Below, piece by piece: positions 31,414 through 36,360 of a DNA stretch of 64,000 nt. Numbering within the stretch: position 1 is the stretch's first letter; each line of letters starts with the position of its first letter. This stretch comes from an uncultured Algibacter sp. (GTDB lineage: Bacteria; Bacteroidota; Bacteroidia; Flavobacteriales; Flavobacteriaceae). A model generated the notes under the pieces. The model saw only the letters and a program-made list of their open reading frames with translations, did not search any database and was not told the origin of the DNA. A program made the translations under genes and the position numbers. The DNA is taken from assembly GCF_947495925.1 (NCBI RefSeq), contig NZ_CANMAU010000006.1:191001-255000 (forward strand). Direction: 5' to 3'.

Positions 31414-32013
31414 TTAGCTATACTTTAGTACATTTTTAACAACACCCTCAATTTTAAAGTAGTCATCCACAATTATAGGGGGATGCCCCTCACTATTTAA
31501 AGACGTTAGAGAAATAGTTTCATTCTGTTTAAAAAACTTTTTAATAAGAACTTTTTCTCCATAAACACATATAATTTTATCTCCGTTTAGAGCTTCATTT
31601 TTCTTTTGGGCAATTACTAAATCACCTTCCTTTATAAAAGGTTCCATAGAATTACCACGAGCAGTAACAATAAATCCTTCATGAGCAGGGAATTTAAGTA
31701 AACGAGAGGCGATGGGAATTTTATCAATAGGGTTGCCATCCAATATCGTTCCATTTTTACCACATTGTGCATGTCCATAAAGGTTTAAATAGATAATTGG
31801 GCGTTCAGGATTAAGGAAAACTTGATAATCTCTTGGGTTGTGTGGATTACGTTTTAAATATCCTTTTTGTTCTAGTTTTTGAATATGATGTGCAACTACA
31901 CTTGAAGAAGATAACTTTAAATTTTCTTGAATTTGTCGTATGGTTAGTGGGTTGTCAACTTGCTCGTTGAGTAGTTTTAAAAGGGCTATTTGGTTGTTGT
32001 GTAAATCCTTCAT
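31414..32013 (-). CDS. LexA/UmuD-like self-cleaving repressor
   Basis: The 199-residue protein has an N-terminal winged helix DNA-binding domain (about 1-65; TIRQIQENLKLSSSSVVAHH) and a C-terminal S24 peptidase domain. The probable self-cleavage site is Cys84-Gly85 (HAQCGKNG), the pair used by UmuD, where LexA has Ala-Gly. The Ser/Lys dyad is Ser122 (GNSMEPFI) and Lys158 (KVLIKKF). It should repress genes until RecA-stimulated cleavage after DNA damage. It is divergent from dinB-dnaE2, with palindromes over both promoters. Whether this is the only LexA of the organism cannot be told. Confidence 0.88.
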   Translation of the reverse strand: MKDLHNNQIALLKLLNEQVDNPLTIRQIQENLKLSSSSVVAHHIQKLEQKGYLKRNPHNPRDYQVFLNPERPIIYLNLYGHAQCGKNGTILDGNPIDKIPIASRLLKFPAHEGFIVTARGNSMEPFIKEGDLVIAQKKNEALNGDKIICVYGEKVLIKKFFKQNETISLTSLNSEGHPPIIVDDYFKIEGVVKNVLKYS

Positions 32014-32041: not shown

Positions 32042-32110
32042 ATTTGTTAATAACAAATATATGTATAAATATAGAATATTTGTTTTTGTTCTATATTTTT
32101 GTAGAACAAA
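32042..32110. promoter_or_regulatory. Divergent operator-promoter of the LexA-like gene and dinB-dnaE2
   Basis: Two inverted repeats are visible. Site 1 is ATTTGTTA-A-TAACAAAT (32042-32058). Site 2 has arms TTTGTTCTA (32085-32093) and TAGAACAAA (32102-32110). The spacer of site 2 is exactly TATTTTTG (32094-32101), a TAnnTTTG promoter element for dinB. On the minus strand TATATTTG (32061-32054) overlaps site 1 and would serve the LexA-like gene. A repressor on these sites would cover both promoters. Confidence 0.72.
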
Positions 32111-32117
32111 TATTTTT

Positions 32118-33338
32118 ATGAAACGCACTATTTTACATTTGGACTTGGACACTTTTTTTGTTTCCTGCGAACGACTCTTAGATAGTAGGTTAAATAATAA
32201 ACCTGTGATAGTTGGTGGTACAGGAGGGCGTGGTGTAGTAAGTGCAGCTAGTTATGAGACACGAGCCTATGGTGTGCATTCTGGAATGCCCGCAAAAATG
32301 GCAAGGCAACTATGCCCGCAGGCTATTTTTATTAGAGGTAATGCAGGCACATACACCAAATATTCAAAACTTGTTACAGAAATAATACAAAGCGACGTGC
32401 CAGTTTTAGAGAAGGCTAGTGTTGATGAGTTTTATGCAGATCTCTCAGGGATGGATCGTTTTTTTGGATGCTATAAATATGCTACTGAATTGCGTAAAAA
32501 AATAATGAGAGAGTCTGGTTTACCCATATCCTTTGGACTTTCAGGGAATAAAACCGTTTCTAAGGTTGCTACAAATGAAGCAAAACCTAATAACCAATTA
32601 AAAATAGGTTTTGGTTCTGAAAAGAATTTTTTGGCGCCGCTTTCTATTAAAAAAATTCCCATGGTGGGCGAAAAAACATTTAGAGCATTTTGTAATATGG
32701 GGATGAAGACTGTACATACTGTACAACAAATGCCTGTAGAAATGATGACTTCGGTTTTTGGTAAAAACGGACGAGTTATTTGGCAGCGTTCTAATGGTAT
32801 AGATAATACACCAATTATAGAATATCATGAGCGTAAATCTATTTCAAGTGAGCGTACTTATGGTCAGGATACTATTGATATTTTAAAAATAAGAACCACA
32901 CTTGCGGCTATGGCTGAAGACCTTGCGTTTCAATTACGACGTGGAGGAAAATTAACTTCGGTAGTGACTGTGAAAATTCGGTATTCAGATTTTCAAACTT
33001 GCTCTAAACAATTAAAAATACCATATACATCGGCAGATCATCATTTAATTCCGTTGGTACAGGAGTTGTTCGATAAATTGTATGATAGGCGTGTGCTTAT
33101 TCGTTTGGTAGGTGTTAGGTTTGGAGGTATTACCTCAGGGACCTATCAAATTAATTTGTTTGATGATGAGAAAAGAACGGTTAATCTATATAGTGCTATG
33201 GATAAAATTCGCTTACGGTATGGATCACGCAGTGTGTTTCGCGCAGCGGCATTAGGAGAAGGGGCGAGGTCTGTAGGTAATTTTACTAACCCTTTTAATG
33301 GAGAGCCTCCCATTGTATTAGCGCATCGTACACAATAG
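32118..33338 (+). CDS. dinB: DNA polymerase IV (Y-family)
   Basis: The tracked ORF begins at 32061 inside the operator; the ATG at 32118 starts MKRTILHLDLDTFFVSCERL, the conserved palm motif of Y-family polymerases, so I use it. Catalytic acids lie in HLDLDTFF and SVDEFYADL; the thumb HhH region is KIPMVGEKTFRAF, and the little finger follows (about 235-345). It copies past damaged bases with low fidelity. The last ~60 residues are an added tail with LFDDEKRT, which may hold a clamp-binding motif (QINLFDD). It is 10 bases before dnaE2 and under the LexA-like operator. Confidence 0.94.
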   Translation: MKRTILHLDLDTFFVSCERLLDSRLNNKPVIVGGTGGRGVVSAASYETRAYGVHSGMPAKMARQLCPQAIFIRGNAGTYTKYSKLVTEIIQSDVPVLEKASVDEFYADLSGMDRFFGCYKYATELRKKIMRESGLPISFGLSGNKTVSKVATNEAKPNNQLKIGFGSEKNFLAPLSIKKIPMVGEKTFRAFCNMGMKTVHTVQQMPVEMMTSVFGKNGRVIWQRSNGIDNTPIIEYHERKSISSERTYGQDTIDILKIRTTLAAMAEDLAFQLRRGGKLTSVVTVKIRYSDFQTCSKQLKIPYTSADHHLIPLVQELFDKLYDRRVLIRLVGVRFGGITSGTYQINLFDDEKRTVNLYSAMDKIRLRYGSRSVFRAAALGEGARSVGNFTNPFNGEPPIVLAHRTQ

Positions 33339-33348
33339 TTTTAGTATT

Positions 33349-36300
33349 ATGTTTTTAAATAATCATTCACATTATAGTCTGCGTTATGGTACGATACCTG
33401 AAAAAGAACTTCTAGCATTGGCTCAAAAAAATGGTTGTAGCATATTTCCGCTTACCGATATTAATAATACTTCTGGATGCTTAAACTTTATTAAGTATGC
33501 ACCAAAATATGAGGTTAGCCCTGTAGTTGGGATAGATTTCAGAAATAAAAATCATCAGTGTTATGTGTGTTTAGCAATTAATAACGAAGGTTTTTTAGAA
33601 CTCAATAATTTCCTTTCAAACCACTTACATAATGATAAACGGTTCCCTGATGTAGCTCCTAGTTTTAAGAAAGCTATCACAATCTATCCGTTTAAGAAGT
33701 TATTAGAATTAAAAAAACAGGACTTTACTAAAAATGAATTTATAGGAATATCAATTAGCGATATCAATAAACTTCAATTTTCAAATTTGAATCAATTTAA
33801 GGATAAATTGGTAGTGTTGCATACAGTAAGTTTTAGACATAAACGAGATTTCAATATACACAGGTTATTAAGAGCTATTGATAATAATGTGCTTTTAAGT
33901 AAGTTGCCTAAATTACAGCAAGGATTATTAGAACATAAATTAGTACCAATTTATGAGCTAGAAAAAGCCTTTGAAAATTTTCCTCATATTTTGAGAAATA
34001 CGACACGGCTATTGGAGCGTTGTAGTATTGAGTTTGATTTTTCTAAGAATAAAAAGAGTCAAAATTTATCAACCCTAACTAGAAATAAAGTACAGGATTA
34101 TCAAAAGTTAGTAGCGCTTTGTTATGAAGGTTTACCTAAGCGATACGATGAGATTTCAAAAACCATCAAACAACGTTTGAAAAAAGAATTACGTCTTATT
34201 AAACATCAAAATTATGTAAGCTTTTTTTTGATTAATTGGAGGATCATTCAATATGCAAAATCAAAAGGATATTATTACGTAGGTAGAGGGAGCGGGGCTA
34301 ATAGTATTGTTGCTTATTTATTGGAAATTACAGATGTAGATCCTATAGAATTGGATTTGTATTTTGAGCGGTTTATGAATTTATACCGTACTACCCCACC
34401 AGATTTTGATATTGATTTTTCAACATGGGATAGAGAAGATGTTACGCGTTTTATTTTTGAAGAATTTGGAGCTAATGGACAAGTTGCGCTTCTAGGCGCT
34501 TATGTAACTTTTCAATACCGTGGGGCAGTACGTGAACTAGGAAAAGTATTTGGATTACCTAAGTATGAAATAGATAAATTATGCTCAGGGAAATTTAGTT
34601 ATAACCAGTTAGATGAGTTGTCTATATTAGTTTTGCGTTATGCTAAGTATTTTGAAGGACGTCCAAATTATATTAGTATTCATGCTGCAGGCATATTAAT
34701 TTCAGAAAAACCCATCCACTATTTTTCTGCTACTAATATGCCTCCAAAAGGATTTCCAACGGTTCAGTTTGATATGCATATTGCAGAAGATGTAGGCTTA
34801 TATAAGTTTGATATTTTAGGGCAACGTGGGTTAGGAAAAATAAAAGATGCCATTGCTATAATTAAAGTAAATAAGCCAGAGGTTAAATTACCCAACATTC
34901 ATAATGCAAAATCATTTTTTGTTGATGAGTATATTAATACCATGATAGAAAAAGCAGAATGTATAGGCTGTTTTTATGTAGAATCTCCAGCCATGCGTAT
35001 GCTTCTTAAAAAACTTGGTGTTAGAGATTATTTAACGCTGGTAGCAGCAAGTTCTATTATTCGTCCTGGTGTTGCTAAAAGTGGTATGATGCGTGAGTAT
35101 ATTCTACGTCATAAAAACCCAGAGCGTAGAAAAAAAGCACATCCAGTGTTATGGAATATTATGCCCGATACTTATGGAATCATGGTTTATCAAGAAGATG
35201 TGATTAAAGTAGCGCATCATTATGCAGGTTTGGATTTGGGAGAAGCCGATGTGTTGCGTAGAGGAATGAGTGGAAAATACCGCTCTAGGGAAGAGTTTTT
35301 AGCAGTTAAAGAAAAGTTTATTTCTAACTGTAGAAAAAAGGGAGAGCAAGATGCCGTAATATTTGAAGTTTGGCGGCAAATTGAAAGTTTTGCTGGTTAT
35401 GCTTTTGCTAAGGGACATTCTGCATCGTATGCTGTAGAATCTTATCAAAGTTTATTTTTAAAATGTTACTACCCTTTGGAATATATGGTGGCTACTGTAA
35501 ATAACGGAGGAGGGTTTTATAGAACAGAACTCTATTTGCATGAAGCCAAAAAACAAGGCGGGTTTATTCATCCGCCTTGTATTAATAAAAGCACTATTGA
35601 AACACTCATTCAAGGTATTGATATTTATTTAGGGTTTCAGCATTTACAAGGATTTGAAAAACGTAATATGATTAATTTACTGAAGGCAAGAGTAAACGGA
35701 TATTTTTTGTCATTAGATGATTTTATAGAACGTGTGCCAATGTCTATAGAACAATTAGATATTCTTATTAGAGTTGATGCATTTAGAAGTTTAGGAAAGG
35801 ACAAGCGTACGTTGCTATGGGAAGCTTATTATAAATGTAATCATTTGTCTATTGATGAGTTACAACCTCAGTTGTTTAGAATTGGAGCCAAAGCATTTGC
35901 GCTACCAGAATTTACAATAACAGATTTAGAGAATGCTTTTGACCAATTAGAATTGTTGGGTTTTACTATGTATAATGTGTTTTCACTTCTAGAAAAACGA
36001 CCAAATAATAAGATTTTAGCAGCAGATTTAAAGGCTTATAAAAATAGGGTGATAACTATTTATGGATATTTGATTACGGCTAAAAATACAAGCACACACA
36101 AAGGAGATCGTATGCATTTTGGCACATTCTTAGATCAAGATGGTCAATGGTTAGATACGGTACATTTTCCGCCTGTAGCCAAACAATATCCTTTTAAAGG
36201 TAAAGGGGTGTATTGTATTATTGGAAAAGTTGTTGAAGAATTTAATTTTTTAAGCATTGAAGTTATAAAGCAAGAAAGAATGCCTTATATATCAGACCCT

Positions 36301-36360
36301 AGATTTGATATGACCTATAACCGAAAAGCATTTCCGAAATCAGTTACAGTTAATAGTTAG
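33349..36360 (+). CDS. dnaE2: Error-prone DNA polymerase III alpha subunit, DnaE2-like
   Basis: The 1003-residue protein has a PHP domain (about 1-210; FLNNHSHYSLRYGTI), the polymerase III palm with PDFDIDF (about 351-357) and GRGSGANSIVAYLLEITDVDPIELDLYFERF just before it, a finger region with GMSGKYRSREEF, an HhH stretch (about 735-790; FQHLQGFEKRNM) and an OB fold (about 895-975). Length and absence of the tau-binding tail point to the DnaE2 group of translesion polymerases rather than replicative DnaE. It follows dinB by 10 bases, so both are one LexA-controlled unit. No imuA gene is next to it. Confidence 0.9.
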   Translation: MFLNNHSHYSLRYGTIPEKELLALAQKNGCSIFPLTDINNTSGCLNFIKYAPKYEVSPVVGIDFRNKNHQCYVCLAINNEGFLELNNFLSNHLHNDKRFPDVAPSFKKAITIYPFKKLLELKKQDFTKNEFIGISISDINKLQFSNLNQFKDKLVVLHTVSFRHKRDFNIHRLLRAIDNNVLLSKLPKLQQGLLEHKLVPIYELEKAFENFPHILRNTTRLLERCSIEFDFSKNKKSQNLSTLTRNKVQDYQKLVALCYEGLPKRYDEISKTIKQRLKKELRLIKHQNYVSFFLINWRIIQYAKSKGYYYVGRGSGANSIVAYLLEITDVDPIELDLYFERFMNLYRTTPPDFDIDFSTWDREDVTRFIFEEFGANGQVALLGAYVTFQYRGAVRELGKVFGLPKYEIDKLCSGKFSYNQLDELSILVLRYAKYFEGRPNYISIHAAGILISEKPIHYFSATNMPPKGFPTVQFDMHIAEDVGLYKFDILGQRGLGKIKDAIAIIKVNKPEVKLPNIHNAKSFFVDEYINTMIEKAECIGCFYVESPAMRMLLKKLGVRDYLTLVAASSIIRPGVAKSGMMREYILRHKNPERRKKAHPVLWNIMPDTYGIMVYQEDVIKVAHHYAGLDLGEADVLRRGMSGKYRSREEFLAVKEKFISNCRKKGEQDAVIFEVWRQIESFAGYAFAKGHSASYAVESYQSLFLKCYYPLEYMVATVNNGGGFYRTELYLHEAKKQGGFIHPPCINKSTIETLIQGIDIYLGFQHLQGFEKRNMINLLKARVNGYFLSLDDFIERVPMSIEQLDILIRVDAFRSLGKDKRTLLWEAYYKCNHLSIDELQPQLFRIGAKAFALPEFTITDLENAFDQLELLGFTMYNVFSLLEKRPNNKILAADLKAYKNRVITIYGYLITAKNTSTHKGDRMHFGTFLDQDGQWLDTVHFPPVAKQYPFKGKGVYCIIGKVVEEFNFLSIEVIKQERMPYISDPRFDMTYNRKAFPKSVTVNS

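Follow-up and report, generated by a model that had tools for sequence, protein, structure and literature searches.

A predicted LexA-type repressor operator, GTTCTA-N8-TAGAAC, confined to the repressor locus in one clade of Bacteroidota

The window, a stretch of 64,000 nucleotides from an uncultured Algibacter sp., carries a repressor gene and a polymerase operon in divergent orientation, separated by an intergenic region of 104 bp. The repressor gene lies on the minus strand (31414-32013) and encodes a LexA-type protein of 199 residues. On the plus strand follow dinB, encoding a Y-family DNA polymerase IV (32118-33338; Pfam IMS and IMS_C), and, 10 bp after it, a gene for a dnaE-type, error-prone-like DNA polymerase III alpha subunit (33349-36360; Pfam and NCBIfam). 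A dnaE-type gene also adjoins dinB at three related loci (L016-L018).

We characterized the repressor by domain searches, alignment and structure modelling. Pfam detected the LexA winged helix PF01726 (47.8 bits against a cut-off of 23.7) and the S24 autoprotease domain PF00717 (71.9 bits), and Cys84, Gly85, Ser122 and Lys158 were invariant in an alignment of 33 sequences, which gives the protein a Ser-Lys dyad. The cleavage pair was thus Cys-Gly in 33 of 33 sequences, where LexA has Ala-Gly; UmuD also uses Cys-Gly at its cleavage site (PMC8565304). Against the NCBIfam lexA model TIGR00498 the repressor scored 96.3 bits, under the cut-off of 110.95, while two relatives exceeded it (L032, 120.2; L035, 111.9); in the control genomes the same model had matches in nine, above the cut-off in only six. 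The AlphaFold2 model (mean pLDDT 86.7) had full-length LexA as its top Foldseek matches, that of T. maritima first (E 4.5e-14) and DNA-bound E. coli LexA next, and the best sequence matches were likewise full-length LexA. Modest whole-chain TM scores of the model probably reflect differing domain placement. The winged helix scored as MarR-like too in Pfam. No match to the CI-type helix-turn-helix PF01381 was found in the repressor, whereas the CI-type protein L010 has one. The only other S24 protein in this genome is UmuD-like (148 aa, L002, outside the window at G000:C1:487238-487573), and by eye its upstream region contains neither GTTCTA nor TAGAAC. A CI-type LexA was not found in the window genome and was rejected as the regulator on that ground.

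Read directly, the intergenic sequence contains TTTGTTCTA at 32085-32093, TATTTTTG at 32094-32101 and TAGAACAAA at 32102-32110. The candidate core operator GTTCTA-N8-TAGAAC occupies 32088-32107, and in the window genome its arms reach out to 32085-32110. The original prediction that a TAnnTTTG element of dinB exactly fills the 8-base spacer was borne out: TATTTTTG (32094-32101, plus strand) has this form, which flavobacterial sigma-A uses as its -7 box (PMC9723704), and it is kept in the four genomes in which dinB is adjacent. Inverted repeats with arms of at least 9 occurred in 4.4% of shuffles, so the palindrome is only mildly unusual for such AT-rich DNA, and we judged it real because of its comparative conservation rather than its composition alone.

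The same prediction had placed a second palindrome, ATTTGTTAATAACAAAT (32042-32058), over the promoter of the repressor gene. The palindrome is present, and it does overlap the minus-strand TATATTTG (32061-32054), as had been stated. However, its right arm is unique to the window genome in the five-species alignment, where the relatives read ATTTGTTAATAATTAAA and similar, and it was rejected as a second operator; it is probably no part of the operator. The proposal that two palindromes enclose both divergent promoter elements therefore stands for the main palindrome over the dinB element and falls for the unconserved one. TTTGTT/AACAAA is indeed found five times in the 104 bp (shuffle mean 0.5; none of 2000 shuffles reached five), yet its role as a half-site was rejected, since only two of five species retain an intact TTTG beyond the GTTCTA arm.

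The alignment revealed a further conserved element that had gone unmentioned, the minus-strand TTCTATATTT at 32076-32067. It keeps a constant N10 spacing from TAGAAC and pairs with 32089-32098 as an inverted repeat with 10-bp arms. It is likely to combine a third half-site with the -7 region of the repressor gene. At this position the relatives have a -7 box of the form TATATTTG and the window genome has TATATTTA; the TATATTTG at 32054-32061 on the minus strand would be an alternative -7 element of the window genome only, unconserved in the alignment. No obvious TTG-type -33 element was found at the predicted promoters of dinB or the repressor gene.

We then compared the site with its counterparts in the closest relatives. 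Orthologs of the repressor in Seonamhaeicola, Hyunsoonleella and Algibacter mikhailovii each have a divergent dinB-dnaE, and another, in a Bacteroidales MAG (L019), has no adjacent dinB. The block GTTCTA-N8-TAGAAC-N10-WTTCTA was kept in all five species. A perfect GTTCTA-N8-TAGAAC occurred exactly once per genome in the five genomes (about 22 Mb in total, 3.84 Mb of it the window genome), always upstream of the orthologous repressor gene and starting 87-105 bp before its start codon. Four genomes, those with an adjacent dinB, have TATTTTTG as the spacer, and L019 has GTTTATTG; on this comparison the predicted operator arms go with the regulator, and the -7 box goes with dinB. As the site accompanies the regulator even in L019, the sequence comparison lends strong support to its assignment as the operator of the LexA-like protein encoded next to it.

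The motif had also been put forward for a genome search for an SOS-type operator. It defines no genome-wide regulon: with up to two mismatches the window genome had 212 near matches against 212 for a reversed-pattern control, and with up to one mismatch 12 against 11. A genome-wide regulon through this motif was rejected because these counts match the control and 10 of 11 one-mismatch sites lie within ORFs. The direct-repeat N6 form described below had three matches in the window genome against two in the control, none of them at the dinB/repressor promoter. Neither GTTCTA nor TAGAAC was found upstream of recA in five genomes, where a scan had been proposed, and recA was rejected as a target accordingly. 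What survives of the SOS-type operator is thus a site for the adjacent LexA-like protein; a general SOS box it is not. From these site counts and recA upstream regions, no multi-gene SOS regulon including recA emerges, and the predicted operator is a cognate, single-locus one, a local switch. The protein is LexA-like at a minimal regulon, and we call it a LexA-type repressor; we do not file it as LexA because it falls under the equivalog cut-off and lacks the Ala-Gly bond and a recA regulon, although it has the domains and the dyad.

Nor is the motif the operator of the whole lineage, as had been supposed. It is conserved before orthologous dinB in the four genomes in which the repressor gene adjoins, and absent from 28 of 28 other Flavobacteriaceae dinB promoters. 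In 19 of these 28 upstream regions we found GGA-N5-TCC, usually paired at a distance of about 19 bp; this is the published CI-type LexA box (PMC8565304). Neither GGA-N5-TCC nor CTAA-N5-TTAG is present in the upstream region of the window dinB. Among the remaining nine loci, at least six have a divergent XRE-S24 gene, in several cases together with a GCTACA-type palindrome; at L160, L164, L167, L173, L176 and L182 the divergent XRE-S24 gene encodes about 256 aa, with a nested intergenic palindrome like GCTACAAATATAAGCAATAATTGCTTTAATATGTAGC. Orthologous polymerase genes therefore have at least three different S24-type control arrangements. Other Flavobacteriaceae have either GGA-N5-TCC boxes or a divergent XRE-S24 gene at dinB, so that the regulator and its operator vary together between orthologs. 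Bacteroidetes have been reported to lack LexA homologs and to rely on CI-type regulators (Sanchez-Osuna et al. 2021, PMC8565304); at the level of predicted domains, the window clade is an exception. More distant exceptions at this level are L007, L009, L014 and L087, with PF01726 above the cut-off. With L088 and L090 they form a second winged-helix S24 group in Bacteroidota, which shares about 25-30% identity with the window protein and in which PF01726 was tested in four members and exceeded the cut-off in all four.

Relatives of the repressor at 37-66% identity were most numerous in Elusimicrobiota; others came from Margulisbacteria, Patescibacteria and individual MAGs assigned to further phyla, and some of these labels may be due to MAG contamination. 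In 68 regions upstream of the family's genes, we found TAGAAC-N6-TAGAAC in 53 and GTTCTA-N8-TAGAAC in five, and none in shuffles, so that a predicted autoregulatory operator is conserved at 58 of 68. In the three named phyla TAGAAC precedes the relative's gene mostly in direct repeats, and in the tree the inverted form appears only in the clade of five to which the window protein belongs (support 99/97). A similar converging third GTTC occurs at N9-N11 in the Margulisbacteria and Patescibacteria regions. Nine genomes from relatives beyond this clade (Elusimicrobia, one Margulisbacterium and one Patescibacterium) had a single direct repeat each, apart from one with two, which suggests autoregulation and a narrow regulon there as well. 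Direct-repeat LexA sites are already known, GTTC-N7-GTTC in Alphaproteobacteria and others in Balneolaeota; by analogy, a dimer could plausibly accept either layout. No relative of the repressor was found in viral contigs, and a phage origin was rejected for that reason.

Several LexA-type relatives lie in defence neighbourhoods. They stand directly upstream of DNA methyltransferase genes, of N6 type in L022, L023 and L025, of Eco57I type in L030 (1037-2890) and of C5 type, together with HNH, in L020 (4743-6804), and genes for BsuBI/PstI-type endonucleases lie downstream in L021, L022 and L026. In a Tenacibaculum MAG (L024:2141-7849) the relative lies between genes for a DncV-like cyclase, a patatin-like phospholipase and a nuclease, a CBASS-like locus, and in the Bacteroidales MAG (L019:833-4858) its neighbours are KilA-N and RhuM genes, with matches to families that PADLOC lists as candidate defence genes. 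Where relatives adjoin methyltransferase genes, the S24 repressor may control restriction-modification. An open-access literature search found nothing relevant on Elusimicrobia LexA or S24-controlled restriction-modification.

We consider it likely, with good confidence, that GTTCTA-N8-TAGAAC is the operator of the LexA-type repressor and serves a local dinB-dnaE/repressor switch through RecA-triggered cleavage. A repressor dimer would bind the two TAGAAC half-sites and cover the -7 box and start point of dinB and, at its own promoter, the upstream (-33) region; a single site would thereby silence dinB-dnaE and limit the repressor itself. DNA damage would lead to RecA filaments and to self-cleavage at Cys84-Gly85 by the Ser122/Lys158 dyad, after which both transcripts would rise. 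The switch would be local to the translesion polymerases and not part of a genome-wide SOS regulon. The geometry of the dimer is uncertain because the half-site orientation, inverted with N8 in the window clade, differs from the direct N6 of most relatives, and the lack of a recA site counts against this reading.

The protein might instead repress from the same site as a MarR-like or defence-type controller that responds to a signal other than RecA-triggered cleavage, its S24 cleavage being vestigial or differently triggered. The MarR-like score of the winged helix, the restriction-modification, CBASS and RhuM genes beside relatives, and a cleavage pair that departs from the Ala-Gly of LexA would fit such a controller. 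We hold it to be improbable, since the residues of the cleavage site and dyad are invariant in all 33 sequences, UmuD has the same Cys-Gly pair, and the target in the window is an operon of translesion polymerases, the most common kind of SOS target. A wider SOS regulon built on degenerate or rearranged half-sites, which exact-spacing scans would miss, is conceivable in a family with at least two arrangements of TAGAAC; it appears equally improbable, given near-match counts equal to the control at up to two mismatches, direct-repeat N6 matches no more frequent than three against two, and the absence of TAGAAC at recA.

Closer to the preferred operator reading, and a refinement of it rather than an exclusive alternative, is a three-half-site array (32072-32107) bound by two dimers, with the N8 palindrome as one part. 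The constant N10 spacing of WTTCTA in five species and the converging third GTTC in Margulisbacteria and Patescibacteria speak for this array. Still, the third element lacks the G of GTTCTA and overlaps the -7 box, which alone could explain its conservation, and we regard the array as possible but rather unlikely. That the palindromes arose by chance in AT-rich promoter DNA gains something from the shuffles, yet for the main palindrome it is contradicted by retention with the regulator in five species and by uniqueness in five genomes, which makes it highly improbable as an account of the operator; for 32042-32058 a chance origin is still likely.

On a broader scale, we tentatively propose that LexA-type autoprotease repressors with a conserved TAGAAC half-site form a mobile family, which would have moved from lineage to lineage and joined both defence cassettes (BsuBI/PstI-type restriction-modification, CBASS, RhuM) and an operon of translesion polymerases. 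In one clade of Bacteroidota it would have replaced the CI-type regulator at dinB-dnaE, its half-sites turning from direct to inverted; we rate this whole scenario as falling a little short of an even chance. If it holds, the restriction and CBASS genes of the relatives would be DNA-damage inducible, and their linkage to such repressors makes DNA-damage control of defence testable. The two layouts of TAGAAC offer a natural test of the tolerance of LexA-type dimers for both. At an operon that CI-type regulators control elsewhere, the window clade would add a LexA-type repressor of the winged-helix kind together with a cognate operator.

The repressor resembles canonical LexA of E. coli, B. subtilis and T. 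maritima in its PF01726 winged helix and S24 domain, its Ser-Lys dyad and its best structural matches, and the TAGAAC of the window includes the GAAC found in the site of B. subtilis, GAAC-N4-GTTC (PMC3323433). Unlike canonical LexA, it scores under the NCBIfam lexA cut-off, has Cys-Gly in place of Ala-Gly, has predicted half-sites that face outward (GTTC-N12-GAAC) and has a predicted single-locus regulon without recA. Like the CI-type LexA of Bacteroidetes (PMC8565304) it has an S24 domain and would regulate both dinB-dnaE, in the same family, and its own gene, whereas that regulator has a phage-type HTH_3, GGA-N5-TCC or CTAA-N5-TTAG motifs and a broad SOS regulon. The CI-type regulator of Elizabethkingia anophelis is also an S24 repressor; its gene lies beside one for an error-prone polymerase, and the promoter region that the two share contains a palindrome (PMC8565304). 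That regulator/polymerase pair is mitomycin-inducible and has the motif TTAC-N5-GTAA (PMC8565304), and it differs from the window system in its CI-type HTH and in motif and spacing. UmuDAb of Moraxellaceae and HdiR of Streptococcaceae are likewise S24 repressors, each of a minimal SOS regulon centred on polymerases (PMC8565304); UmuDAb groups with UmuD, and HdiR with repressors of phages (PMC8565304), whereas the window repressor is of the winged-helix LexA type.
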